DNA of 64,000 bases from Helicostylum pulchrum (Eukaryota; Mucoromycota; Mucoromycetes; Mucorales; Mucoraceae): assembly GCA_025677825.1 (NCBI GenBank), contig JAIXMO010000065.1, positions 87,439-151,438 on the forward strand, read 5' to 3'. The number at the start of each line of letters is the position of its first letter. Positions within the stretch are counted from its first letter, which is position 1. A program made the translations under genes and the position numbers. The notes beneath the pieces were generated by a model that was given only the letters and a program-made list of their open reading frames with translations, made no database searches and was not told the DNA's origin. Shown here one piece after another: positions 24,937 through 61,723 of the stretch.

Positions 24937-27900
24937 TTACAGTGCAGGATGATAAACACCCTTATAACTTTCTCCAAATAGCATTCTACCTTTATAAATA
25001 TTTTCATCTACCTCTTCTTCTTGCTTGTACTTGTTCATGTAAAAGTTAAGCAGCTCTTGATCTACGTTGAGCGATATCCGTTTATTTATTACTTGCTGCT
25101 CTACAAGTCTTTCCAATTCGTCCTCGGGGTCATTAGAGTGTAACGACTTTACATCAAAGTCTTCTTCCTCGGTATTGTAACTACTTTGACTTGTAACGGA
25201 CGGCCTAATTTTTTTCTGCGTTGTTGTATCGCTCTTGATTGAAGCGCCAGACTTTATGGATTGACTGGTAGATATAGAAGGTGTTGGTTGTTTACTATTC
25301 GACATCAATTTATTTTTCAGTAACGCAGGACTATGACGAAGAGCCGCTCGTAGAAATTCTATAATACACATATTTATCAGTATAAATGTCTTTTTTTTTT
25401 AAAAAAAAAAAAAATACTTACGTCTCTGAATTTCTTCCATCATTTCAGCTAAAGACCATGTCATGTTTCTATACTCCAAATTAGGCTGCTTAAACGGGAA
25501 ATTATACAAGTTATAAAACGTATTCTGTGTAGGTCCTCGTAAACTAAGACAATGCTTCGTTGCTGGAATGCGAATATAAATAAACGTGCGATTGGTAGAC
25601 GACCGATTCTTCATTACTGTAAGCTCGTCCGACTTCATACTCTTTTTCCTTCTTACCGTCTCCTTTACTTTTTTCGTAATCAGATCAAAGCTGGCGAAAC
25701 TTCCCTCACGTTTAGACAACCTACTGTTAAATGTTTTATCTACAGAGCTGGTGGAAAGTGATTGATTATCCAATTTGCTGCTGTTCCCTGACGTGACATC
25801 TAGACCATCTACTAGCGAAACTGCATCCTCGTCGTCCTCATACTCTTCTTCAATTTCTTCGCTGTCCGTTTCATCAGTTTCAACAGTTTCTTCTGCAACA
25901 ACGATACGCGGGAAAAAATAGTCCTTCATGGCGGTACCAAACGCCATACTTATTTGAAGATTCAAAGGCACCAAATTAATTTCCAACTGCTGAATAACCG
26001 GTATCCCACCTACAGGAGGTAGCGACTCCAACACGCCTCTCACCATCTTTTGCCTTGAATCAAACACCTGCCCTGGCTCTACGTACGCATCCAACACATC
26101 TGTAAATACGGGTTCATCCGTCATATTCTTCAGTTGCATCCTCTCCACTTCAATCGTACTTTTACTCGACCCATTCTGCTTATTGAAGAACACAAACTTG
26201 GTATTTGTCAGTATCCATTTACACAGTGAGCTCTCATTATTTAGTACCGCCTCCCACACAATTTCATCTGACGTAAAGCTAAACCGCATCGCATTATCTG
26301 TCTCCTCCAAATGAATATCGCGTCGAAACGTCTGTATGCACCGAATGGCCTCCACGACCAGATACAGCTTTTCCAGGTTTTGCCGCATCTTCTTTTTATT
26401 GCTGTTAAATTCACGGACCCCCAGTGAGTCTAAACGAGGCAACGCTTGCATAAACCGTTGATGCAGCTCCAACAAGACGCGGGACCGTGTCTGCAAGACG
26501 CCTACTTGTTTTACAGTTTCTGCCAAGTCACTGCGTTCAGCCGCCAACATCACGTCTCTAAACCTGTTTAAACGTTCCTTCTTTCTTGGCGACCCACTGT
26601 TTCCTAGCAAAAGATTGATCAGTGTATAGTACAGAACATGTCCCTGCTGCGAGTTCAGCATCAGCTTAAATTGCGGGAAATGCAACTGCATCGTATTCGT
26701 CCTATCCTCAAACGGACTCTTGCGGGACGTATTATACTTGTTAATCTTGATTCTTAAATGGTTGTACCTATCTAGCTGTATCGTGCCGCACAACTGCGAC
26801 GCCACGCGTTGAAAGTTATCAAAGTACTTGACGTCCTTGTAGTACCACAACTGCTCCGGCTGCACCCACGCCGCCCAATGCGAGTTTCGGCATTGCCCAT
26901 AGGCGCTCTGCGTTAACAAATCAACCGCCAGAAACTCCATGCGTTTCGCTACCAACAACTGCGCATTATCCAAAGCCACAATAATCCTGTCCTTAACAAT
27001 TCGTACGTCTTTATCCGCTGCACCACTACTACTGCTGTTATCAATTATGCTAAACGCCTTTACATGGATCCGCTCATTTGTAAACACGATCAAGTGATCT
27101 AGCCCCTTGTCGCTTTGAAAATTCACCTGCGGGTTCACCATATCGATCAAGTACTTGCTCTTCATTTCATACGAGTCCGGAATATTCTTGTACTGGTAAT
27201 CGGGGTCATCCACATTCTCCGTACTGCTTTCAAACACGTGAATGTTTTCATGCGGCTGCTGCGGCTGCTGTGATTTACTCTTATTCTCTTCTTTTTCGTT
27301 ATATGCCACGAAATTATTCAGGCGTTCCGCCAACAGCTTGTCAATTAGTTTCTGCGTCAACTTCTCGGGTTCTTGTTCGGTCACCGGTTGCTTGGTTGCG
27401 GTAGTGGTAGCTACCGGTACATCTGGTTTCCATTGCTGTTGCTTTTCTGCCGTATGCACAAGATCTTGTAAAAACTTGAAACAGCGAGAGGAGAGGTTAT
27501 ATACTTGAACAGACCGATGATCCTTGATCTCTTGCCAGTAATAAATGGCGTCGCGAACAGAATTGTTCCAGATGATTTGCGGGTTGTGGATAAAGAACCT
27601 GTCTTGAAAGGGACCCATGAGCGTCTCCCAGCGACAGAGATCGTTACGACGGCCAATAGATGATGTGGTGGTCTGTGGTGAGTCGCGACCACTGGCGTTA
27701 AGTTCGGTTTCCAAGATCATTTTTGCAATGTACGTATGGAGCATGTACCGGTTTGTACGCAAGTAATTTATTTTTTCGACTAGTATTGCGTGCTATTTTT
27801 AAGAAATAAAAAATTAATGCACGAAATAAAAAATAAAAAAGTTTAGTTTCTTACTTGGTCAGATACTTCTTTCTCATAGGGATGCATTGTATGCATAGCA

Positions 27901-30900
27901 TTAAGCACAATATCCAGCTGCTTATCATACTCTTCAATTGTAATATCCAAATCACTTCCTCTTTTTAACAAATGAGCTTTTTGAAATTCATGCGAGTCTA
28001 AAATATCTTTTTATTAGCCGCGCATAATTCTCATATACACATGAATATTCTTTTACCTGTCCCTTTTCCCATAATACAATCATGCGTCTGTCGTAAATAA
28101 TCTCTACTTGCCGTACTCCCTTCATCATTCTGTCTCACATAATAAAACAACGGTGAAAACGCGAACGGATGCACTCTAATTTTCTTATACCGTATATGAT
28201 TCTGATGCGCAAACGACACCGAGTCCAAAATCACAAAATCTCTTGGATCTACCCACTGAAACTCATCCGCTTCTTCTTCCTCCTCATCATCATCCGACGC
28301 AGTAGCCGACAACGACGCCTTTATCACCCGTAAATCAATCGCATGTAACTCAATTTCCAATTCATGAAAGCTCATTTCCGCCTTAAGCGCCGGGTCCACC
28401 GTATTCAACTCTCGTCGTTGATGCAAATCCACACTGAACTGACTTACCAGCGCCTTGAGCCCTGCGGACCCGCCACCTTTAACATGCATATAACTTTCTT
28501 CGTCCGTACAAAAGAGCCCAATGGCCAATGGGTTGATGACAAACTTGTACTTTACTGTATTTAGGTGCTCGCCAAACGACTTGGATTTCTCTGCGTCGCG
28601 CGGGAACAAATTGCCTTGTCGTACAGGAATTGAGATGGGACTGCCTAGAAGCCTATACCAGTGCGAAAAGTGTTCAATAAAGCAGGGGCTGATATACATG
28701 GCGTTTTGCGACGTGGCGTCTGGAGGAGCTTTATGTAGTTTAATAATACTTAGTGATAAATGAACAAAGTCAGATCTAAACCCATGAAACGCATCATAAT
28801 TATCCTTACCAAAAAAAAAAAAATTAGCTTTTAAAATTATTACTGAACAAATATATTTTTACCTTGTCAAGAAATGTTTCTACTTGCTTTGTAGATTGAA
28901 ACAAAACATTATAATGCGGCGAGAAAACTTGCGACCGACACCTGTTCAAGCGATGCACGCCTACACACTTGTTGCACCTATTACACCCTAACCTTTCAAA
29001 CCCCAGCCCAATGCCCATGCGAATCCCGTCCGTCAACTTAAGCACCACTTTCAAAAACCTATTTGTATCTTCTTCATTAACCATACTTGACTTTCTCTCA
29101 AAGCTATCAGGTAGACTTGGTACAAACCCACCACGTACAAGATCCGGCACGCCAAACGCATACTGCTGACTTACAATCTGCATAAACTCATGCTGCGGGT
29201 TCTTGTATCCTAACAGCCACACCACCTCCTGACTCCAAATCTTTGTCAATCCCGCACCTCGATTCAATAACTCGTAAGGGTCTCGCGTTCCCTTCACCAC
29301 CAGCGCTAAATCTCCACCACCGACAAAACTCAATTTTGTTTGAGTATGTATCGAGAACCTGACCTTGTCCCAGAACCCGAGCCGCGAAGACGGGTCGACT
29401 TGTTCCGCAGAGAGACTTTCCAGCACGCGACCGATATCTTGGATCGCAGGACTGTACGAGACGGACCAGCAGATGGTCGTCATAGAGGGCGTCAGAATAC
29501 GGTAATCAACCACAGAGTAAAACTTGACTGGAGACGTGGTACGTACAGCAGAGAGTGTATATCCCAAGAAAGATCCAAGACCGGGTATGATTGGAATATC
29601 AATAATACGACTACCGCACGATCCACCAAGTTCATCACCTAACGCATAGTTTCCTTCTAAGGACCAAGCGACTCTGCTTTGGTTCCGACTGCGCCGTGTG
29701 CTTATACTTCCATCATCTTCTGCAGTTTGTAGCGGCGGCACGTACAACAACGGTAACGGATAGTCTCTTACTTTCACCCACGTCTGCCCCGCCTTAATCG
29801 AAAGATGAAACGGAACAATCACCGAGAAATTATTATCAAGGGGTACCCCATCACCTATCGTATGAATAAACTGCCTTGTTTCCTGCAACGAGAAATCCGC
29901 CGGTTTAAAACTAATCTTTGTAAACTGCGACGAGAAATGCGCTAAAGCCGGGTACAGCGGACGCGGTTGAATCTCTATGATAAACGACACCGATTCCGGT
30001 CTCTGCACTTCATCCAACGTTTCATCCAGCGCCTCAAACGTCACCGAGTTTCGATAATCGTCCTTTACATGTAGCTCCTTATAAAACGTTTCCTCTTGCG
30101 ACTTTTGGTCCTTAATATTCTTTATCCAAATACTTGAGAAATGCACCAACAACTTTTTCTTTGCTTCACAGATCTGTGCATCGACTTCTGTTAGATCATC
30201 TTGTTCTTCAACAAGCGTAGAACTTTCTTCTTCCGTGGTACAAGTGTCGTGTGCTACTGCCATTTCTTGAATCTTGACCTGTAGGGCTTCTTCATACGCA
30301 AGCCTTTTTTGCTGCTCCACAAGTCCCGTTCGAAAAATACATCGAAGCTTCGCTTCAAACGGGTCGTCGTCAAAAAGCACCTTGAGCACGTGCGTCTTTA
30401 TCTGAATACACGGGATCAAAACAGGGTCGTTGTTACATGTGGGTCCGAAATATGTAAACGCATCCTCCGTCAGCAGCCTTGTATGCAGCACCTTGATCGC
30501 CTTGATCACCCCAATCACACTATCCAGCACAGTCGATAACGTGTAACTGTACGGAACACTTGCAAAGATCTTTCTTGACTTGAGATCGATCTGACGCTGA
30601 TGCTTGATAGAAATCTGTGCTTGATCTATTTCTAGCAACTGCTCCCAGAACTGGGGATGTACCGCCGACTGACCCAACACCATCATATTTCTAAACTTGA
30701 TTACCAGCACTGCCTTGCGCTCAATTACTAACCCGTCCATACGAAGGTACAGTTGATTATCTTTTGGTAAAAACAAATGAACGTCTCCTCTTTCCACCTG
30801 AACATCCAAATCCACAAGTACCTGCACCTTACTACTTTCTTTTTTCTTCTTTCCGCTTAATTGCTGTTTCATACTTAACAAAGACCTTACGAACAATAAA

Positions 30901-32882
30901 CAAACATAATGATGCTGCACCGAATAACAAATTCCGTACTTTTTCACCTTACAAGCAACCGTTACCTGTCTCAGCGCTTCTTGCACCGCACACACCTTTG
31001 CCACCAAATTCAATTGCGAGATCCACACAATCACTTTTTTCTTTTCTTCTTCAGCCAAATGGCCCGTACCCGACGCTTGCTGCAAGTACAACGTATCTAC
31101 ATGACATCGAACGTTCCAGTCTTTTCCTCCCTCGCACACCATATTGAATTTCTGCGTATCAAGCACCAACCGCGTCCAAACCGTTTCCTTTGGTGTGTTG
31201 TCAATGTACCCTTCAGGCACACGGTCCATGCTGATTTGTGCTCTGTCCAGACTCGTGACTACAATAGACCCTTCAGTTACTTCCAGACTAAACTTCAAAC
31301 CATGTAACAAACTCTCTACCCACACTGGACGCTCCTTGCTATTAGAAGTAGGTCTTACCTCCTTCATACGCGCCGGAATCATACTTAGCCAAACCACACT
31401 TGAACACATTGTATCCGAATCATTCCACAATGACACCACCGGTTTCTCAATTGACACCTCGGACTGCACACCCTGATCCAACGAAACGACCGTTTCATAC
31501 TTTACACCTTCCTTTACACCGACCCAAAACCGAATTTTAAATACCAACACCGCATGTTTCATCTGTAAAAACTGAGTTTCACTACCACTTTCTACATGAC
31601 CTATTTTTAATCTATACATTGAGAATTTGGCAGATACACGATATGACCATTTTTGGTTACTGGAGGAACTTGTGGTGCGAGAGACTTTATCCATGAGTTG
31701 AGTCCATTTAGTTGTCAGTTGCTGATACCCAGTTATATTTCTCATCCACTGGTACTCTTCCTGCGCAAACAAAACGTCCAAGTGACTCTCTGAGCCCGAC
31801 GAAGCGGACGGAATATCGTCTCTACCTCTTGTAACGTACTCTCCTGACACTCTTACAATAAAACTCTCGGCCGCTATAACCCCAACGGTTTCCGGTACGT
31901 GCAACTGTACCTTTGGCGAGTTGAACACAATTGCAAACGTACATAACGGTAAATCCGTCCACGTCTTTTCAAACTCTTTGCTCTCTGTTGCCAAGTTGTT
32001 ACTGGTGATTAAATGACTTGCGTGTATATTGACAACAGGCGAATTTAATATACATGTGACACTAATAAACTTGGTGTACGGAGCAAACGTATGCTGCGAT
32101 TTTGCCATTGTAATATCTATACTGGGTACCAACACCACCTGTGTATTTGAAGCCGAACACGTCCATTGACTTGCTGTGACCTGAACAAACGGAGTATGAT
32201 GACGCCGTACCGTGATTGAAATACTGTTTATACTCGACTCTAACTGGGCCCAAACAAGTTGCATACACTCCACTGTTACACGCATTGAATTCAAAACTTC
32301 TCGTGATACACTATTAGTAGTACTACTGGATGATGATGATACTAGTTTCATGATTTCGTCGCAATAAAGAACTGTTTTTCCCAATTGAAACTCTATGTCT
32401 ATATTTGATTGTAGTATACCAGACAACGTGAGTGTGCTCGGTGTAGTGATGGATGCAATTAATTGTTGTTGCCTGTTTAATAGTTGTAACGGTCCTATTT
32501 TAATCTCTAGCTGTTGATGGTATTGAATTGAAAGGTGGTCAAGTTTTAAGGCAACAAGCGTTTCTTTGGTTAGTAGTGAAATGCGATGGATCTCAATAAC
32601 AATGTGTTTGGTAATACAAGTGACGATGATATGCGTCATGCGTAATGAAATGATGTATAAAACTAATCTTTTAACCCATGTTGTTGTAAGTGGTGGTGAT
32701 GGTTCTATGCGTAGTTGAATACCTGTTATACAAATGACGAATTGATACTGTTTAAATGATGCGTTGATTTGGCCTATTTCAAGACCGAATTTATGGTCCA
32801 AGTAGTGTTTGATAGATGTGATGATATGAGGATGATATATAAACAAGATTGCAACAAACAGTAGTAGTAGTAGCCAAACCAT
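24937..32882 (-). CDS. FMP27: FMP27/Hobbit-type bridge-like lipid transfer protein (BLTP2 family)
   Basis: Five exons (28863-32882, 28057-28804, 27855-27997, 25422-27792, 24937-25358) encode 2567 residues, the normal size for Fmp27/Hob1, Hob2 and KIAA0100. I chose the ATG at 32882 (MVWLLLLLFVAILFIYHP), a signal-anchor that fits the family; the frame stays open upstream but only through low-complexity sequence. The GFWDK motif that names the Fmp27 domain is at ~29371-29385 (RLGFWDKVRFSIH). The C-terminal third has the Apt1-like region (WAAWVQPEQLWYYKDVKYF, KYLIDMVNPQVNFQS). These proteins form a long hydrophobic channel of RBG repeats, are anchored in the ER and are placed at ER-plasma membrane contacts, moving phospholipids. 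An acidic stretch (DDDEEEEEADEF) lies in exon 2 and another in exon 4. Confidence 0.95.
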
Positions 32883-33189
32883 GATGCTGTATATAAGAAG
32901 AAGAAGAAACAGAAGAAAGAAAGAAAAAGAGAGAAAAATAACAAAAAACTTGTAATGTATTTCTATACAGCCAAATACGGTAATACCGACACCCGTCTTT
33001 ATAACAAACAAATGACCTTGGATAAAAATATTGTTTTTTTTTTAATATGTATATATATAAAAAAAAAGGGGGGGAAAAAAAGAAGAAAAAAAAAATATAT
33101 ACAAAAGAGAAGTTCTAATATATATGTATATGTATATTTTGGGGGAGAGGACATGGATAAAGTATAAAAAAAGATATAAAGAAGTTTGG
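32883..33189. other. Intergenic between homeodomain gene and FMP27 gene
   Basis: A/G and A/T homopolymer-rich promoter of the FMP27 gene. The frame of FMP27 reads upstream to 33011 without a stop but with Phe/Leu-rich low-complexity sequence, which I treat as untranslated. Confidence 0.45.
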
Positions 33190-34447
33190 TTAAATGGGAT
33201 AAGGAGGAGGAATCCAATAGTCTTTGACGTTGGATAAAGGTAAACTTTGATGCCTCCAACTCTGATGCTGCTGATGCTGCTGCTGGGAAATCAAAAGAGC
33301 CTGCTCAATTGACGAAGGATAACTATCTACAGCAGGAAACCTAGTGATCTGACACAACCGTTCATCCAAGCCAGCAATGGCCAACAGCTCTTGTCGTAGA
33401 TCAGCGGCTAAGCCACGCACAGTATGACGTAACACCACGGACGCTTGCATGCCCTCAGTGAAATCACTGCACTGAACCCACGAAGTGGTTCTATTCTCCA
33501 TAAAGAAAATAGGAGGTTCAATTAAATCAATATCAATTTGAGCTGAAATATTGTCATCCAGTACGTTTAATTCAATCGATGCAATACTGTCAAATGATAT
33601 CATCATTTTAAAATGATAATTACTATCACGAATATGCCAACTAAACGTTCTTTCGTTGAGTTTATAATAACACATCAAATCTTGTTGACTGATTTTCATC
33701 CGATGCCATGATCCAATCGTAACTGCTGTAGCCGTAATCAATCCATGATGGCTGTGCAAAGGTGGCTCACTTTCTACATACACATGCATTTAATTTTTTT
33801 TAATATATTTTTAATTTAAAAACAACAAAAAATTACAAACCCATTCTACGTGGTACAACAACTCCAAATGATTGTGGTGTAGGTGAAGGTGAAATCGTAA
33901 GACTATAAATATCTTCTTCCAACTCATTCGGTCCTGTAATTGAAATAGAAGGTGGATCACTTTGTTGCTGTTGATGATAATGAAACATGGATGGAGGAGG
34001 GGGAGGTGGAGGAATCATCATATCTGTACTCCACGCACGATGAATAGGTAATTTCGCACTGTGCAAGTGTCTATTCATTTGAAACTGTTGCTGTAACTGC
34101 TGCTGTTGAGTCTGTTGCTGCTGTTGCACAAGCTGCTGTTGCTGCGTATACCAATACGTACCTTGATGAGATGTCGCCTCTGCGCACAATCTAGCTCGTG
34201 CCACTTCTTGTTCTTGACGCAACAACACTCTGCGCTGCAGCATCTTTACTTTGGCTCGGCGGTTCTGAAACCATATCTGAATAGATCGTTCTGGCATTTG
34301 TAACTTGAACGCCAACTGCTTTCGCATCTTGGAATCAGGTGTTGCACTCACACTAAACGTTTCTTCTAAAATTGTAAGCTGAGACGGAGTAACACGAGTA
34401 CGTTTTTTCGAGTCATCTGAACTAAGAGGAGGTGTTGAATCGGACAT
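33190..34447 (-). CDS. Homeodomain transcription factor with fungal C-terminal domain
   Basis: Two exons, 33841-34447 and 33190-33773, joined by a 67-nt intron (GTTTGT ... GTATGTAG) give 396 residues. The homeodomain is at ~14-73: KKRTRVTPSQLTILEETF then MPERSIQIWFQNRRAKVK with the recognition-helix WFQNRRAK. A Gln-rich segment and a PPPPPPP tract follow. The second exon is often left as a separate ORF (an ATG lies inside the intron at 33789), but splicing gives RRM-ESEPPLHSHHG and continues into ITATAVTIGSWHRM ... DLMCYYKLNERTFSWHI ... FDSIASIEL, a conserved-looking globular domain that, as I recall it, sits C-terminal to the homeodomain in other zygomycete and basidiomycete regulators. A nuclear DNA-binding regulator; targets unknown. 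Start chosen at 34447 (MSDSTPPLSSDD); upstream frame is low-complexity. Confidence 0.85.
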
Positions 34448-34696
34448 GATAATTTTTGTATTGTAAAATAAAGGAATGTATAGTTTAAAAGGAATGTATA
34501 GTTTAAAAAGAGAGTATAGAGAGAGAAAGGGGGGAGGGGAAGGAGAGGAGGGGAAGCGAAGGGAAGAAAAGGGATATTGTTTAAAGGAAGGGAGAAGGGG
34601 TGGGGGAGAGTGAAAAAAAAGAAAGAGAGGTGAGAAAAAAGTTTTATTATATATTGTTGTGTGACGATTCAATATACCTCTCTCTTTATTTCTACA
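34448..34696. promoter_or_regulatory. Shared divergent promoter, homeodomain gene / RecQ helicase
   Basis: Only 249 bp separate the two start codons. The left part carries a tandem GGAATGTATAGTTTAAAA repeat (about 34471-34507) and a long G/A-rich tract (about 34508-34635) on the plus strand; the right part is T-rich with TTTATTATATATTG before the RecQ start. Regulatory function is inferred from position. Confidence 0.5.
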
Positions 34697-37173
34697 ATGT
34701 CGCATCAATCACAGTTAAACGCTATTAACCAAGAGATCCTATCTCTGGACTCTACTATTGAGCTTCTAAAACAAGACCGGGACATACTTGTCCAACAACG
34801 CAACAAAATAATCGACGCCTTACAACAAACCGCCATTCAAAACGACCTGTCTCAAGATTCTCTCAAATACGATCAACAAGATTTCCCTTGGTCCACCGAC
34901 CTTGTTGAAAAGGCTCAACAACATTTCGGTATAACGCAATTCCGCCCTTTACAATTGCCCATCCTCAACGCCGCCATGGACCAACAACGAGACTCCTTTA
35001 TTGTCTTACCTACCGGTGGTGGCAAATCGCTTTGCTATCAGTTACCTGCTCTCTTAGAAGACGGCTTTACCATCGTTATATCACCTTTGGTATCATTAAT
35101 TAAAGACCAAACCTATCAGTTAAATGAAGCTCGAATTCCTGCTGCCTATTTAACTGCCAGCTCAACAAAAGAGCACGTCAATCAAGTGTACAGAGACATG
35201 GTTCCCGAAAAGGATTCAACCACCACTGTTTATAAATTACTCTATGTCACACCAGAAAAAATCGCTAGAAGCAAACGGTTTATGGCTCGATTAAATAAAG
35301 CGTATGATGCTGGTATGCTGACACGTATTGTAGTTGATGAAGCTCATTGTTGTTCACAACAAGGACATGATTTCAGGCAAGCTCCTTTATTTTTTTTTAT
35401 TTTTTTTCTAACGTATACTTTTGTAGACCTGATTATAAGCAGTTGAATATATTAAGAGTACGTACCAGAAAAAAAAAAGAGATAAAACTGTTTCTATACA
35501 TGTATAACTTACCACAAAAAAAAACAAACAAAATAGACTCTGTTTCCCAAAACAAAAATCATGGCGTTGACAGCCACATGCCCTTGGTCTGTGATGAAGG
35601 ATGTGATGAAAATTCTAAACATGAAACAACCTCATGTCAAGGAAGGTACACTCGTCTTTAGCGCACCATTATACCGTAAATATATCATCTTTTTGGGTCA
35701 CATACATCTTGAAATCTAAAAAAAAAAACTGTATAGGTCCAAATCTCGTCTATAAGGTTGTACAACGACCGGACACTGCGGATGAGACCATCCGACACAT
35801 TACTCGCTGGATTCAACAGACGTACCCCAACCAGTCTGGCATCATTTACTGTTTAAGTAAAAAAGATGCCGAGGTGGTAGCTCAAAATATCATTAAAGAG
35901 AGCAAGAGATCGATCATGTGTGGAACATATCACGCCGACATGGATGAAGTAACTTTTCTTTTAGTACAACGTAAAATTTAGCGTCATTTTTTTTAAAATA
36001 ATCTTTTTTTTTTTTTAGGAAGACAAAGAGTTAATCCATCAACGTTGGAGGAACAAACAACTTCAAGTGATCGTCGCTACAATTGCTTTCGGTATGGGTA
36101 TTAACCATTTAGAAACTAGATTCATTATTCATCATTGCATGTCCAAGTCAGTTGAAGGATATTATCAAGAAAGTGGTAGAGCTGGAAGAGACGGAAACAA
36201 AGCCGAATGCATAGTCTACTATCGCGGAACTGATGGTATACTATAACAATATATGTTGAATTTCCTTTTTTTTTTTTTTTAATAACAAACATATATAAAC
36301 AGCTATGCGCTTATCTTCGCTTGTCGTTGGTGAAGTGACCGGAAGGTCCGGCCGTAAGTGATTTTTTGACCTGCATCAATATTTACTTACTCTTTTATTT
36401 TTAGTTCGTGAGATGGTTAAATACGCTCAGGATTACACTACCTGCCGAAAGATAGCATTTGAAGAATACTTTTCGTTGGACTCTAGTCAAAAAGAAGGCT
36501 TGGTCAACGAGATCACACCTGACCAGGCTTGTGGCATTTGCGATAATTGTACAAGACCTACAAACTCGGTTCTATTTGAAAACATTGGACAAAAAGTGGC
36601 AACCATTGTCCGCTTATGCAACTTGTTGAAATCTGTAAATGAACGAGTCACCATGATTAAGTTGGTACAAATGTTGCAGAAGCGTGGGTTAGGTCTGATA
36701 AAATCTCGTGTTGAAGAAGATACCAATATTATGATCCCATTTGATCGTAAATATAGCGAATACGTAAAGTAAAAAAAAAAAAAAAAAAAAAAAAATATTA
36801 TCAATTTACGAAACCTGTTAATTTTTTTCCGTGTTTCATATATAGAATATTGAACGTATTATCAATCATGCGCTTATTGAAGGTTACTTGACTGAAGACT
36901 TTAATTTTACACCTTACAACACAATCACGTAAGAAGAAGGAGAGAGTTTTGTACATATGTACACATTTAAACTAAAAACCTATTAGCTACATTACTGCGG
37001 GTCCAATGGCTGGAGACGTGTTGATAAATCCAGATATCGAAATAGAATTTTCATTTCTACGTAGTTCGCTTATTCAAGTAACCAATAAGAACCCAAGAAA
37101 GCGTCCACAAAAAGAACTTGTTCAAACTGCAACTAAACGTAAACTTTTACCAGAATGCATTGTATTGGACTAA
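34697..37173 (+). CDS. RecQ-family DNA helicase, RECQL1-like
   Basis: Nine exons: 34697-35376, 35427-35457, 35537-35675, 35737-35948, 36019-36235, 36303-36353, 36405-36763, 36846-36928, 36987-37173; 652 residues (human RECQL 649). An N-terminal coiled coil (~5-50) precedes the helicase core: [13 protein letters not shown], Walker [77 protein letters not shown], and motif [14 protein letters not shown]. The RecQ zinc-binding Cys set follows (YTTCRK ... ACGICDNC) and then a winged-helix region. It is a 3'-5' DNA helicase of genome maintenance. Intron 1 has a GC donor (CAG|GCAAGC at 35377), required to give DFR-PDYKQL. Start at 34697 ([11 protein letters not shown]). Confidence 0.95.
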
Positions 37174-37484: not shown

Positions 37485-39104
37485 ATGCTTTCAACTCATG
37501 CAAATAAAAAATTACGACCTAGACTTAAGGTGGTTGCAACCACATTCTCACAATCCACGCCTACAAATATTTGCTCACCACAACGTACGGATTTTATGGA
37601 CGACACACCTTACTCACCTGCTGCCTCTACAACTTCATTTATTTCCTCTGTTTCTTGGGTAGCTGAGAAATCTGCTTCTGAACTTGGTTCTTTATTAAAA
37701 AATGCCTACCGATCCTTACGCGAAAAAGAAAAGAGTAAGTATACATACATACTTTGGATATGTAAAAAGAGACCTAAACTAACAACTGGATGTATAGACT
37801 TGCTACTAGCAGCAGAAATTGGTAAATCATTATTAGAACATAACCAAAATTTAAAAAGAGATTATGATAAATTACTACAAAACGTAAAATCCTGTGAATC
37901 AGTTACAAAACCAGCAGAAGAAAATACTTATGACCAAGATGAAAATACCACAATGCGTATACTCTCCAGTAAAAAAGCATACGACACAATCATTGAATCA
38001 CTGGAACAAAAGAACGCTGAAATCAAGAGCATGCTGGACCAAACCCAACACCACAGCGACCTCACCGAACAACAATACGAAAAAAAGCAACGTAAACTGG
38101 AATCCGAAATCGAGATACTTAAAGACCACCTTGATATTGCCGCTAATAAAATCCACGAACTTGAAGAATCCAACCAACAAAAGAGACAACAAAGAAAGAA
38201 CCTGGACGAAATACGAGAATTTGAACAACAGCAAAAGACGGATGATTTATTTCTCATGAAGGAACTCACCGTGAAAATGCAAGAACTATTTACTGAAAAC
38301 AAGCAACTTCAATCCTCAAAGAAGTCTGTAGAAGAAAAGCTCATCACTTCACTCCATGACCTGGAGAAACTACGATCCAATTTTGAACACTTTGAACTAA
38401 CCCACCAGGGTTACTCCACCTTACAAGAATCCTTTGAACGACAAACCACACATATTAAAGAACTAAACGACTCGTTGGAAGATCACCGACAAATTCTATC
38501 CAGACTACGTGATAAAGGATTATTACATTCAAACACAACTAGCCTGCATGACTTTGATGATAAACCCACCGTCTCCAGCAGCAGCATGCAAAGCTTAATG
38601 GGTGAATTAGAAAACGCTTTTTGGTCTTCTTCTTCACCACACCACCGCTCCAAACTTCAAAAGAGCAATTCCGACACCAGCCTCTCCAGCTTCTCTAAAA
38701 TATACGACCTTGCAACCATGACCGAACGTAATCTCACTTCATTCTATAGCGCTCCAGCTGACTATGCATTAGAAAAACTCCTTAATAAAATGGGTGTGGA
38801 TGACCGTAGCCTATTTGATGATGCCGAACATTTACTTGATTCTTGTGCTGGTGAACTATTTGAACCTGAAGGAAACGGTAGTATTTATGCTGAACACAAC
38901 CTATACCCATGTACTACTACAATATCAACACACTTGTTAAAAAACGATAGTACAGTGCCACCAAAAGGTTTAACAAATCGCATCTTATTTCAAATACGTT
39001 ACTTGTTTCGCTCTATATTTAAATGGTGTAGATTCGCAATCATTTTAGGAACTGCTGTGCTTATCAATTTATGGAAAGGGCCTGATCTCATATTGGAAAA
39101 GTAA
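37485..39104 (+). CDS. Coiled-coil membrane-anchored protein with BICD/TRAK-type CC1 box (putative dynein adaptor)
   Basis: Two exons, 37485-37734 and 37798-39104; 518 residues when the 63-nt intron is removed. The intron is in frame and stop-free, so retention would insert 21 residues. Right after the junction, NLLLAAEIGKSLLEHN (residues ~84-99) contains AAxxG, the CC1-box motif with which BICD, TRAK, HAP1 and Spindly bind dynein light intermediate chain. Coiled coil spans ~84-335. At 350-354 LMGEL fits the Spindly motif (L-x-x-E-L type) that contacts the dynactin pointed end. The C-terminus has a basic segment and a hydrophobic anchor (FAIILGTAVLINLW, ~495-510) five to ten residues from the end, which would place it as a tail-anchored protein on a cargo membrane or nuclear envelope. 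The motif matches are seen; the motor function is inference. Confidence 0.75.
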   Translation: MLSTHANKKLRPRLKVVATTFSQSTPTNICSPQRTDFMDDTPYSPAASTTSFISSVSWVAEKSASELGSLLKNAYRSLREKEKSKYTYILWICKKRPKLTTGCIDLLLAAEIGKSLLEHNQNLKRDYDKLLQNVKSCESVTKPAEENTYDQDENTTMRILSSKKAYDTIIESLEQKNAEIKSMLDQTQHHSDLTEQQYEKKQRKLESEIEILKDHLDIAANKIHELEESNQQKRQQRKNLDEIREFEQQQKTDDLFLMKELTVKMQELFTENKQLQSSKKSVEEKLITSLHDLEKLRSNFEHFELTHQGYSTLQESFERQTTHIKELNDSLEDHRQILSRLRDKGLLHSNTTSLHDFDDKPTVSSSSMQSLMGELENAFWSSSSPHHRSKLQKSNSDTSLSSFSKIYDLATMTERNLTSFYSAPADYALEKLLNKMGVDDRSLFDDAEHLLDSCAGELFEPEGNGSIYAEHNLYPCTTTISTHLLKNDSTVPPKGLTNRILFQIRYLFRSIFKWCRFAIILGTAVLINLWKGPDLILEK

Positions 39105-45263: not shown

Positions 45264-48054
45264 ATGGATTCGCCTGATCAGAAAGGATTTTATACGTTTG
45301 CAGCTTCATCCACCGAAACTACGCATAAACCAATGCACTTGGAAAAGCGGTTTAACAAGAAGCGGAACCTCAAAAACCCCAACAAGGAAACCGTCGAAAC
45401 CAAACGAGCCGCAATTTTAGAAGAAAGAAGACGAAAGCTGCACCAAAACTTTCAAAAGGTCAAGAGAATTGCCAAAGAAATGAAGGCTCGTAGAGAAGAC
45501 AAGATTGACTTGTTATCCAAATCCATGGCCTTGGCTGAAATGAACCGTAATCAACATATCGAAAGAAGAAGAGCTGCCTCTAAACAAACCGTTGAACGAG
45601 CTAAATATATCGTCTTACAAAACCAATATCGATCTCAGCAAGAACAAGGTAAGATAAAAAAGGAATAAAGTGGAAAATGAAAGAATAATTTTAATTTGTC
45701 ATATTTTTACTAGAGCGAAGAAGGGCTGAACTTGAAAGTAGACTTGAAAAAACTGAGCAAAGACGATTGGCTCATTTAAATAGATATCAACAGCAAAAGA
45801 AGAAAAAACTAGTCCTTACTCCTTCTTCTTCTCCTACTACTTGTTTAATTACTCCAATGTCTACTATCTCTATTCAGACCAAACTAGATGATCAACCCAA
45901 GCTTAAAAAACCTTCAAACTGGTCCATCATCCTCAAGGCCTTTCGAGAATTAGGTTTACCTTTACCTTCCAATCCAGATACTTGGCTTGAATTCAACCTT
46001 TTAAGCCAAATGCTAAACCAGCCTAAAGTCATTGTCGTTACCACCAAAGTACTAAACACTGCCTTGAAACAAACTGATGAAGAAAGCAGACACCGTGCAC
46101 GTGTTTTATTGACTTCTTACATGACTCTCATGTGTCCCAAAGAAGTATTACAAAACGTAAACGGAACCGAAGAAAAGGTAATACATATATATTTCAGGAA
46201 GACCAATAAAAAATTAATTTTTATTTATGTTAGAGATTACACCTTTCTGCTAAACAAATGCTAACCTTATTTGAAACCTGGCTTAAAGCCCACGGCCGCC
46301 CTGGTGCCACTGTTGCCCGTCTATCCTTTGTCCAAGCCTGGGACGAATATAACCTCTTATTTGAATCCTGGAAATCGCGAGACTGCAACCACCTTGTTGA
46401 AAACATGATTGGCTACTTTGTCGAGCTCTCCACCTTACGCCAAACCATGATTGCCCAAGACAACGACGATTCCGTAGGCGACCAATTACAATCCCAGTTA
46501 AACGAAATCAAAACCAAGTTGCAAAAGCTCGGCGGCCCTGAAGCTTTAGCTCTGTTGCAACGAGCTTTAGAGATGTCCGCTGCATCTACTTCTACCGGCA
46601 GAAAGAAGCAGCAGCAAAAAAATACGCCGCGTACACCTAAATTGGATAATGCGTATGAAACTGAAGCTGATGCCAATCGTCGAGGCGCTAGTGGTGAGCA
46701 GCTGGGTCAACTTTTAAACGGATACGCACCTGAGTCTGGCCTGACAAACGAGCAATTAGCTCATGAACTTATCATGGACCCCGAGTTCAAGCTGCAACGA
46801 CAACCTACCAACGAATTAGAAAGACGAGTTCGCATGATGGCCGAAAAGGCCTTCTTTGATAAAATCTTCCAAGACATTGAGAAAAAAACTCCTGAATTAT
46901 CCTTACCTTCTTTAATCATGGACGTTAAAAACGTAAGTCTTTATTTACTTTCTACTTTTACAAAACAAAAAACTAACCTATTCTGGTAGCGCTTATTATC
47001 TTTGGTACGCCCTGGTACCACTATGCATCAGCACATTAATGATCGTATCGACCTGGACTTAATCCAGCAACAAATGCACCAGCATACATTCGACATGGAC
47101 TCCATGATGGACTACGTACTTGGCGTGATGTCCGATATGTGTGCCCCTGTCCGCGACATCGAGATCCAAACTCTCAGACAAGACCCTAATATCATGCACC
47201 AGATGCCTACCGTTTTACACCTTTTGGAAGACATGAGCCTCGACCTGGCCAATTTCCGCTTAAGATCTTTACGCCCTCACTTGATGCCTATCGCCGTTGA
47301 CTACGAACGCGAGAAATTTGCATCCATGCTAAACACCGGCCATATCCAGCTCGTGCGTACACGATCCTGGTTAACTGAATCCGCCAGTAAATTATGCCTT
47401 GCCGCTGCAGAACGTAACCCCGAAGGTGTACGACCCGAAAAGAACAATAAGCCCACACACGACTCTATCTTTGAAGACGCTTATGTCTCTTTGCTGGTGC
47501 AAGCTGATCCCGTCAGCGCCGATACTTTGCCGGAGACCTTACTCATGGACGCCAAACGTATCCACCAGTTCCAAAACGACGTGCAGGCAGTTACCATTGT
47601 TGCCGCTCTTTTAATGCTAGCGAGAAATTTCGGATCCGCCAGCCCGCAAGCGCTTTCTGATTTAGGCTCCAAACTATTCACTATGCTGGAAGACCCTTCC
47701 ACTGCCATTGACCATTTGGCGACTGAAATTGAACGCGCGGTCAACGTACGACCAGAACGAAGAGAGATGATTCGAACCATGGTGGATAAAACTGTGTCTC
47801 ATTCGGATACCGTGTACTCTTTGCTCTCGCGACGTGTAGCTTCCGTAATTAAATTGTCGATACAGAACAATGCGTTTGTCACCGAGGCGGTTTTAGCTAG
47901 TAACGGATTGCAGCATGTCAGAAGCCAGCTTCAAGCAATTGCGCATAATATACTGCGTATGACGCATCATCATCGAAAGGTCTTTGCGTCTTATTACGAT
48001 GAAATCATCAAAGCTGCTTTACATGAGCATTTTGTTTCTACAAGTCAAAACTAA
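45264..48054 (+). CDS. TCP11 / SOK1 family protein
   Basis: Four exons, 45264-45648, 45714-46177, 46234-46932 and 46990-48054, give 870 residues. The first ~175 residues are strongly charged and helical (KRAAILEERRRKLHQNFQKV, RIAKEMKARREDK), a probable coiled coil. The second half is the T-complex protein 11 domain: LEDMSLDLANFRLRSLRPHL, VDYEREKF, FEDAYVSLLVQAD and LPETLLMDAKRI. In yeast the homologue Sok1 is a high-copy suppressor linked to protein kinase A signalling; the biochemical role is not known. Exon 3 has a FETWLKAHGRPGATVARLSF segment typical of the N-terminal part of the domain. Exon 4 uses TAG acceptor at 46987-46989. No membrane segment. Confidence 0.9.
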
Positions 48055-60253: not shown

Positions 60254-61723
60254 ATGTCATCAGACAGTTCTACTCAAGAAATATTGGATCATCCAACACA
60301 CGTCAAATATAATATTATTACAGCAACAAAAAGAAAATTACCAGCAAACGAAAGAAAAGAATTAGAGGAATTTATAACATCCAGAGGAATTTTAATAGAA
60401 AAATCAGTAAAATCTATTTTTTCAAGACCGGAAAAATTAGCAATAAAACAAGGATCTGAAGCATTATTAGATCACTACCAAGAATATAAGAAAACAATCA
60501 ACAAAGAAGTAATAGAAGATACTGAAATGACGGACGAAGGAAGTTCTACAGTACAAACGAATAAAGCTTTTTCAGAAGAAGAAGTTTTACAGCTTATTTC
60601 CACAGCATTACAACAACAAGAACAACGACAACAGCAGCAACAGCAGCAACAACCACAACAACAATATTTCAACAACCAAATAAGAATCCCTACACCCCCT
60701 ACTTATAATGGTACTAGAGATGTTACTCAGATAAATAATTGGTACACATCTGTGGAACATTATTTAAATTTTTACAGTTTTGAGAAAGCACGTTGGGTAT
60801 CATACGCTGTATCATTACTAACAGACCATGCTCGATTATGGTACTACCGTATGGCTCAACAAATTAACTACGATCTTTCAAACTGGGAATCATTTAAAAT
60901 ATATATGGATATGGAATTCAAACCGAAATATACTTTACAATCTACTAGAGACAGATTATTTGAATTGAAACAAACCTCTACTGTGCAACATTATATAAAG
61001 GAGTTTCAAAATATTTTATTGGAATTGAATATCACTGACGATGAAGCTATGGATAAATTCGCTCGTGGATTAAAGGATCGTGTAAGAGCCCATGTTTTAT
61101 TAAAGGATCCTTTAGATTTGGAGGGCATGTATCAATGTGCAAGAACATTTGAGTCTGCTACACAATACGGCCGAGTATCAACTAATAATCATTCTTCATC
61201 ATCCACAACTATTGACGATCCAATGGATCTTTCAGTCATTGAAATTAAACAACAAAATCAAATATTATTAAATTTATTGAAACAACAGACTTTTAACAAA
61301 CATAATCATGAACAAAAGTCTAATAGTATTAATTGTTTTTACTGTGATAAAGTAGGTCACAAAAAGATAGAATGCCGAAACAAGAAATGGGATGAAGATA
61401 GAGGCATTTTTCAAAACAAAAGAAGTAACTCCAATAGTAATCGCTATCAAAAACCTCAAAATAATTTCAATAGAAAAACTAATAACTATCAAAGACCAAA
61501 TAATTTTCGTCAACAGCTTAATGCATTATTAGACCAATATGATCCTTTAACTATTAACGAAAATCATAAATCTAACCAAAACACAACTGATAATAGTACT
61601 AATAATAGTACTAATAATAAAAATCTTATTGACTTATCTTCATTTGATAGTCAAGACTACTACTCATACCCTGTATTAAAGCCTGATCACTGTTCCCGAA
61701 ACACACAAGCTATCACCCTCTGA
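60254..61723 (+). CDS. gag: Gag polyprotein of Ty3/Gypsy element
   Basis: 489 residues. Residues ~120-135 form a Gln-rich run. The capsid-like core follows at ~145-310: NWYTSVEHYLNFYSF, ARLWYYRMAQQ, SWESFKIYMDMEF-type segment (NWESFKIYMDMEF), VQHYIKEFQNILLEL, and DKFARGLKDRVRAHV, the Retrotrans_gag order. At ~357-370 there is a CCHC zinc knuckle, CFYCDKVGHKKIEC (C-X2-C-X4-H-X4-C), for RNA packaging. The C-terminal part is Asn/Arg/Gln-rich. The frame ends at TGA 61721-61723, inside a 44-bp overlap with pol. The start ATG is the first after the primer-binding site. Confidence 0.92.
   Translation: MSSDSSTQEILDHPTHVKYNIITATKRKLPANERKELEEFITSRGILIEKSVKSIFSRPEKLAIKQGSEALLDHYQEYKKTINKEVIEDTEMTDEGSSTVQTNKAFSEEEVLQLISTALQQQEQRQQQQQQQQPQQQYFNNQIRIPTPPTYNGTRDVTQINNWYTSVEHYLNFYSFEKARWVSYAVSLLTDHARLWYYRMAQQINYDLSNWESFKIYMDMEFKPKYTLQSTRDRLFELKQTSTVQHYIKEFQNILLELNITDDEAMDKFARGLKDRVRAHVLLKDPLDLEGMYQCARTFESATQYGRVSTNNHSSSSTTIDDPMDLSVIEIKQQNQILLNLLKQQTFNKHNHEQKSNSINCFYCDKVGHKKIECRNKKWDEDRGIFQNKRSNSNSNRYQKPQNNFNRKTNNYQRPNNFRQQLNALLDQYDPLTINENHKSNQNTTDNSTNNSTNNKNLIDLSSFDSQDYYSYPVLKPDHCSRNTQAITL

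Follow-up and report, generated by a model that had tools for sequence, protein, structure and literature searches.

The window analysed here is a stretch of 64,000 nucleotides from the mucoralean fungus Helicostylum pulchrum (contig JAIXMO010000065.1, positions 87,439 to 151,438) and contains, at 37485–39104 of its forward strand, a two-exon gene whose spliced product has 518 residues. This protein is predicted, with a probability of about 70%, to be a divergent CC1-box activating adaptor of dynein and dynactin that carries its own membrane anchor. Judged from sequence, its family probably grips dynein and dynactin by two motifs of animal adaptors—the CC1 box and the Spindly motif—and ties the motor to a membrane with no additional receptor between them. 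The presence of both motifs together with a conserved hydrophobic tail is what makes such a direct motor–membrane hook likely. The gene features the following parts:

37485–37734, + strand: exon 1, which encodes a disordered N-terminal stretch and the beginning of the first helix (SVSWVAEKSASELGSLLKNAYRSLREKEK), a helix kept family-wide
37735–37797, + strand: intron of 63 nucleotides, phase 1, without in-frame stop; GTAAGT, CTAAC, and TATAG read directly
37798–39104, + strand: exon 2 including the stop codon, read from the sequence
37800–37844, + strand: CC1 box LLLAAEIGKSLLEHN (residues 85–99), from conserved columns and a profile match to BICDR1 and TRAK2
37809–37823, + strand: AAEIG within the CC1 box, with A88 and G92 at core positions by the spacing of conserved columns
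37968–38510, + strand: long predicted coiled-coil helix, about residues 141–321, its ends placed after the P0002 model (Thamnidium orthologue)
38595–38609, + strand: putative Spindly motif LMGEL, with which a short predicted helix begins behind a disordered linker, in 60 of 62 aligned members
38970–39074, + strand: predicted C-terminal anchor helix, about residues 475–509, a basic amphipathic part followed by the core; from conservation and AlphaFold
39033–39074, + strand: 14-residue hydrophobic core of the anchor, from a pattern match over the family
39075–39101, + strand: short tail KGPDLILEK with conserved GP, from the family alignment

The CC1 box and the Spindly motif

A first-pass annotation of the window had claimed an AAxxG CC1 box and, about 260 residues behind it, a Spindly-like LMGEL. 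Both claims were borne out: AAEIG occupies residues 88–92 and LMGEL residues 350–354, a separation of 262 residues. Conservation was judged in alignment A4, which contains 62 of the 114 homologues, hand-picked as near full-length. AAxxG, which lies at the N-terminal end of the coil, is present in 61 of these 62 members; no variation is seen at L85, A89, E90, G92, L95, L96, or N99, and A88 occurs in 61/62. The residues L85, A88, G92, L95, N99, L102, Y106, and L109, each conserved to at least 90%, follow a spacing of 3-4-3-4-3-4-3, and A88 and G92 would therefore occupy adjacent core positions. In the CC1 boxes of BICD2 (Ala43 and Gly47) and Spindly (Ala23 and Gly27), a core cavity formed by small residues takes the helix of the dynein light intermediate chain (LIC) (PMC9481740), and the predicted placement of A88 and G92 matches this published cavity of Ala and Gly. 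The Spindly consensus (L-hydrophobic-x-E-hydrophobic) is found in the same columns in 60/62 members and is missing in P0038 and P0042; shuffling of the linker region yields an expectation of 1.53. A looser Spindly-like pattern is carried by 106 of the 114 homologues (56/60 and 50/54) and missed in 8. Mean column identity is 0.89 in the CC1 box, 0.79 in the Spindly motif, 0.69 in the hydrophobic core, and 0.52 in the coil; the linker before the Spindly motif has 0.34 and the stretches after it 0.40 and 0.19. The CC1 box and the Spindly motif are the most conserved among the blocks measured, with the hydrophobic core next. A chance match of a five-residue motif was rejected on column conservation. 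The orthologues keep AAxxG and LxxEL—the very point on which the first-pass annotation had staked its reading beforehand.

The full-length search found the box pattern in 49/60 homologues: 45 with AAxxG and 4 with VAxxG. Most of the 11 homologues without it are models that begin downstream; P0060 begins at the box, and P0044 is without a box. The new matches of later searches all have AAxxG (54/54), a count that is biased because the CC1-box region was the query and that is not relied on.

The resemblance to adaptors of the BICD2/TRAK/HAP1 type, proposed by the first-pass annotation, was supported by profile search: the matches are BICDR1, TRAK2, and weakly HAP1_N, with no golgin among those listed. 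A family profile built from 50 of the 114 members was compared with 177,635 distinct PDB sequences. The top four matches are all BICDR1, with whole-sequence E-values of 3.9e-12 to 4.9e-8. The BICDR1 CC1-box stretch alone scores 36 bits (E about 3e-8) at low bias; the three best matches join it with a coil stretch of high bias. The remaining sequences have E-values of 8.1e-4 or worse, crescentin being the first. A CC1-only profile (58 columns round the box) yields BICDR1 at about 1e-9 and TRAK2 at 5.9e-4, followed by four unrelated sequences (E 0.085 to 0.34). The Pfam model HAP1_N (PF04849) matches 31/50 scanned members at E≤0.01, the best at 8.5e-8, and other families each match at most two members. 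A precomputed PF04849 label is carried by some database members, 8/60 in the first search and others in later ones. The window protein itself scores 10.6 bits against HAP1_N, under the cut-off of 33.9 bits. As the family scores seen also stay below this cut-off, the kinship to CC1-box adaptors is drawn from the family profile. By phmmer against the PDB, the single window protein gave one chance match (E 0.8), so that the profile was required, and the Pfam scans of the window protein and family members list no Hook domain. Foldseek of the PDB with the model yielded 4 matches at E≤10, of which none reached E≤0.001; long helices in monomeric form are ill suited as a query. An exon-by-exon HAP1_N search of the host genome gave nothing over the cut-off and one match of E 0.0098 at another locus; no BicD match (PF09730) was obtained there or in the controls, so that absence of BicD is not shown by this search.

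Architecture, membrane end, and host family

An AlphaFold model of the architecture was made for P0002, the orthologue from Thamnidium (90% identical), as a monomer and with 61 relatives in the alignment. The model features helices at 64–120, 145–325, 354–367, 387–440 (in three pieces), and 485–519, with a mean predicted local distance difference test (pLDDT) score of 70.7. The first two are long helices of 57 and 181 residues, and the stretches 121–143 and 329–352 fall below a pLDDT of 50. In the helix 145–325, 10-residue blocks reach 80–98, except for one of 71 and for 63 at both ends. The single coil of about 250 residues that the first-pass annotation had described thus has to be replaced by two predicted helices (64–120 and 145–325), split by a low-confidence loop. 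The Spindly motif starts exactly at the helix 354–367. Toward the end of the coil, at residues 295–320, the sequence RQxxHIxELNxSLEEHR is the best conserved coil stretch behind the CC1-box helix, and 55/62 members carry QxxY/H here; this stretch is perhaps a second contact to dynein or dynactin. The region 387–440, located between the Spindly helix and the anchor, is moderately conserved, with a mean column identity of 0.43, and no Pfam family is listed for it in the scans made.

The last helix is basic and amphipathic and then passes into the hydrophobic core, forming one continuous helix in the model. The core is flanked by a basic residue (R or K in 107/110) and by the conserved GP, and the anchor columns W, R, F, A, G, and P are invariant or nearly so. 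The grand average of hydropathy (GRAVY) of the core exceeds 1.75 in 105/110, the mean tail charge is −0.6, and the tail behind the core measures 8–13 residues in 102/110. Rules for sorting tail anchors by hydrophobicity and charge were set on whole transmembrane domains, compared with 14-residue cores here (PMC5450235); under these rules, the parameters of the predicted anchor are more like those of the endoplasmic reticulum (ER) than mitochondrial or peroxisomal ones. The C-terminal hydrophobic anchor of the first-pass annotation stands as a conserved hydrophobic segment, but its core is only 14 residues long.

The host genome contains a DLIC gene, whose C-terminal exon carries VLANFFQSLLSKK. 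Compared with the PDB, this exon piece has two matches only, both to helix peptides of human LIC1 (E 0.044 and 0.088; weak values because the peptides are short), and the letters of host VLANFFQSLLSKK align with human VLANFFNSLLSKK. The matched peptides are those of the co-crystals with Hook3, BICD2, and CRACR2A (PMC10886578). As judged by this alignment, the host LIC carries a near-copy of the helix bound by CC1 boxes. The genome also encodes dynactin p62 and has a DCTN5-type match as well as Hook-type matches over the cut-off on two contigs. The LIC and dynactin parts would serve Hook as well and, therefore, permit the mechanism without singling a CC1 adaptor out.

In the proposed mechanism, a parallel dimer anchored at its C-terminus would reach outward from the membrane, and its CC1 cavity would take the LIC helix (VLANFFQSLLSKK in the host). 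The coil would be laid along dynactin, with the Spindly motif docked on the p25 pointed end. The membrane itself would be the cargo through the anchor—most likely an ER-type or nuclear-envelope membrane—and dynein would pull it to microtubule minus ends. The loop behind the CC1-box helix could supply slack or regulation.

The window gene has three paralogues in the 32.2 Mb host genome (the window contig comprises 151,438 bases), which makes four family members. Their identities to exon 2 are 38%, 34%, and 32%, with E-values of 8e-57, 9e-33, and 5e-6. Exon 2 of all three opens with DLxLAAExGKxLLExN, followed by heptad-like sequence and a hydrophobic end segment, which in paralogue L004 is without GP; exon 1 carries, as compared by eye, the same pre-intron helix. 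Three protein database searches yielded 114 distinct homologues. The named ones come from Mucorales, Umbelopsis, Jimgerdemannia, Endogone, and Glomeromycota, the last including Gigaspora, Paraglomus, and Entrophospora, and many others are metagenome proteins. The names are those of the database matches. Named family members are early-diverging filamentous fungi throughout. In a quick tree of 57 rows, the window gene groups with its orthologues from Thamnidium and Mucor, B and C are the paralogues that fall into other groups with Mucorales relatives, and paralogue D sits on a very long branch of unsure placement. Later protein searches with the CC1-box query (E≤10, shared 5-residue words required) brought up no named protein from animals, Mortierella, chytrids, or Dikarya; because of the required words and the many metagenome matches, absence outside the named fungi is not shown by them. 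That early-diverging coenocytic fungi possess a whole family of membrane-integral CC1-box activating adaptors, each uniting a motor-recruiting head, a dynactin-spanning coil, a pointed-end motif, and a membrane anchor in a single chain and in need of neither Rab nor receptor, is a proposal for which we see about even odds.

Weighing the adaptor reading against its rivals

A number of observations weigh against the adaptor reading. VAEIG stands in place of AAEIG in P0026, P0027, P0033, and P0039 (Rhizopus arrhizus, R. microsporus, R. delemar, and Sporodiniella), and a change from AA to VV in the Spindly box inhibits LIC binding (PMC9481740), which bears on these VAxxG members. BICD2, from its co-crystal with LIC1, is matched by the CC1-only profile at E 0.67, at chance level and below the four unrelated sequences, and the HAP1_N scores seen are all under the curated cut-off (best 32.2 versus 33.9 bits). 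HBS1—QxxY/H followed by glutamates, as found in some adaptors (PMC7615804)—is not at its usual place: QxxY/H occurs 10–110 residues behind the box in 21/62 members, and scattered. The coil of P0002 is interrupted by the loop at 121–144, and a linker follows it; in many adaptors, disordered sequence separates the coil from the Spindly motif (PMC7615804), Spindly has a break in its CC1, and JIP3 has a gap of 197 residues before its Spindly motif (PMC9481740, PMC7615804). The block at the Spindly motif is of low confidence, with a pLDDT of 58–60. The motif fits poorly in two paralogues: LSSEL in C (L003 1465–2841) and LHSEL in D (L004 1003–2169). At the membrane end, the core has a short length of 14 residues in 102 of the 105 pattern-matched rows (111 tried), a charged residue lies inside it in 7/110, and the best 19-residue window has an unfavourable median of +3.8 on an approximate insertion scale. 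Finally, the model behind the DCTN5-type match of the host genome also matches 4/14 prokaryote controls, 1 of them over the cut-off.

Because of the unfavourable insertion score, the anchor may lie in the membrane surface. This leads to a peripheral adaptor, in which the amphipathic helix and the short core would sit in the surface of an organelle such as lipid droplets or mitochondria or would bind a receptor; dynein binding is compatible with it. The basic amphipathic helix preceding the 14-residue core and the single continuous model helix at 485–519 agree with such a position, as does the positive score on the insertion scale. However, the core GRAVY resembles that of yeast ER tail anchors (PMC5450235), and the flanks and the GP tail are conserved. 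We regard a peripheral adaptor as doubtful, though to be taken seriously. Long multinucleate hyphae need nuclear positioning, and a tail with ER-type parameters could also be that of a LINC-type, KASH-like nuclear-envelope protein, a CC1-box equivalent of KASH5, whose tail would meet SUN and which would bring dynein to nuclei. This would be one particular form of the adaptor reading. KASH5 indeed is a transmembrane dynein activating adaptor at the nuclear envelope (PMC9242646). However, the tails of the fungal family are short, 8–13 residues in nearly all members, and a penultimate proline occurs in 0/110. KASH tails typically end with a proline before the last residue, and the fungal tails are therefore unlike them, which leaves a KASH-like protein quite improbable.

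Tail-anchored golgins share the overall plan of a long coil and a C-terminal hydrophobic helix. The window protein could accordingly be a golgin-like tether, its CC1-like sequence a structural relic and dynein unbound. The HAP1_N scores below the cut-off and the four VAxxG members would fit this, and the coil alone matches ordinary coiled coils, including the EEA1 tether at E 1.5. A tether nevertheless appears improbable, since the CC1 box (0.89) and the Spindly motif (0.79) lie far above the coil (0.52) in column identity and the significant PDB and Pfam matches are adaptors. The nearest Pfam model, HAP1_N, could finally point to a protein working chiefly with kinesin-1, since kinesin is a further partner of HAP1_N-family proteins, TRAK among them. 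TRAK serves both motors (PMC10011603). Yet the match falls on the CC1 box, which is the LIC site of dynein, and the Spindly motif is a dynactin site; a kinesin-1 adaptor is accordingly very improbable.

Known adaptors, gene models, and window neighbours

BICDR1 (PDB 6f1t and 7z8f) resembles the fungal family in its CC1 box and flanks, which align over 36 residues including KEKDLVLAARLGKALLERNQDMSRQYEQM; its coil aligns as well, with high bias. Unlike BICDR1, which binds a Rab, the fungal proteins feature a loop directly behind the CC1-box helix and a hydrophobic C-terminal anchor and are without QxxY/H at the usual place. BICD2 is not known to have a membrane segment. Like the cavity predicted for the fungal family, the CC1 cavity of BICD2 (PDB 6pse, with the LIC1 helix) is formed by Ala and Gly (PMC9481740); the profile match to BICD2 is not significant. 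TRAK2 and HAP1 share the CC1-box profile match and the partial HAP1_N matches; TRAK, in contrast, reaches mitochondria through MIRO, which bears the membrane helix (PMC10746525).

The first-pass annotation had presented membrane insertion as a distinct solution. This has to be narrowed, since a transmembrane activating adaptor, reportedly the first, has already been described in KASH5, though KASH5 belongs to the EF-hand class (PMC9242646). Like the predicted fungal adaptor, KASH5 combines transmembrane anchoring with a putative Spindly motif; unlike it, KASH5 binds LIC by EF-hands instead of a CC1 box (PMC9242646). In nesprin-2, the CC1-like motif and the Spindly-like motif stand in the opposite order, and the protein requires BicD2 (PMC11310688). 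Fungal Hook (HookA, Hok1) likewise is a dynein adaptor in fungi, but it binds dynein–dynactin by the Hook domain and coil and reaches early endosomes via FTS and FHIP (PMC7649786). Where this review of fungi treats organelle transport, the adaptor discussed is Hook on early endosomes (PMC7649786). Among the matches listed in a literature search by title and abstract start, which scarcely covered subscription journals and bioRxiv, there was no fungal CC1-box adaptor and no integral CC1-box adaptor—weak evidence of absence.

Should the proposed family of membrane-integral adaptors prove real, fungi would have their first known class of CC1-box adaptors, and no earlier class would have an integral anchor. 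With four members in the host genome, several membranes or states could each be served by a separate dynein handle. A CC1-box adaptor in these fungi would also place the origin of the class in an ancestor shared by animals and fungi, or transfer and loss would have to be assumed. The built-in anchor would provide a simple test of the minimum of an adaptor: LIC site, coil, pointed-end site, and membrane. The VAxxG members of Rhizopus and the two paralogues with altered Spindly motif offer ready-made natural variants. More speculatively, the family is a candidate mover of nuclei or ER in long multinucleate hyphae. The paralogues L003 and L004 retain the CC1 box despite their degraded Spindly motif.

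The CTAAC within the intron 37735–37797 is a branch-like site. The intron position is common to the window gene and its three paralogues, as compared by eye, and gene models of orthologues, P0002 for example, have their splice at this position too. The intron length of 63 nucleotides is divisible by three, and the public gene model P0001 translates through the intron, which would add 21 residues immediately ahead of the CC1 box. A further model for the window gene, P0003 (481 residues, 92% identical), leaves out other parts.

Directly upstream, on the same strand as the adaptor gene, lies a RecQ-like helicase gene (34634–36769, +), with a DEAD match at 34634–35443 and a RecQ zinc-binding match at 36362–36769. 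A homeodomain protein gene is located at 33836–34708 (−), and two long open frames at 25402–33041 (−) carry matches to the Hobbit/FMP27 family. Further along the window follow a Tcp11 gene at 46234–48051 (+) and a retrotransposon gag match at 60254–61720 (+).
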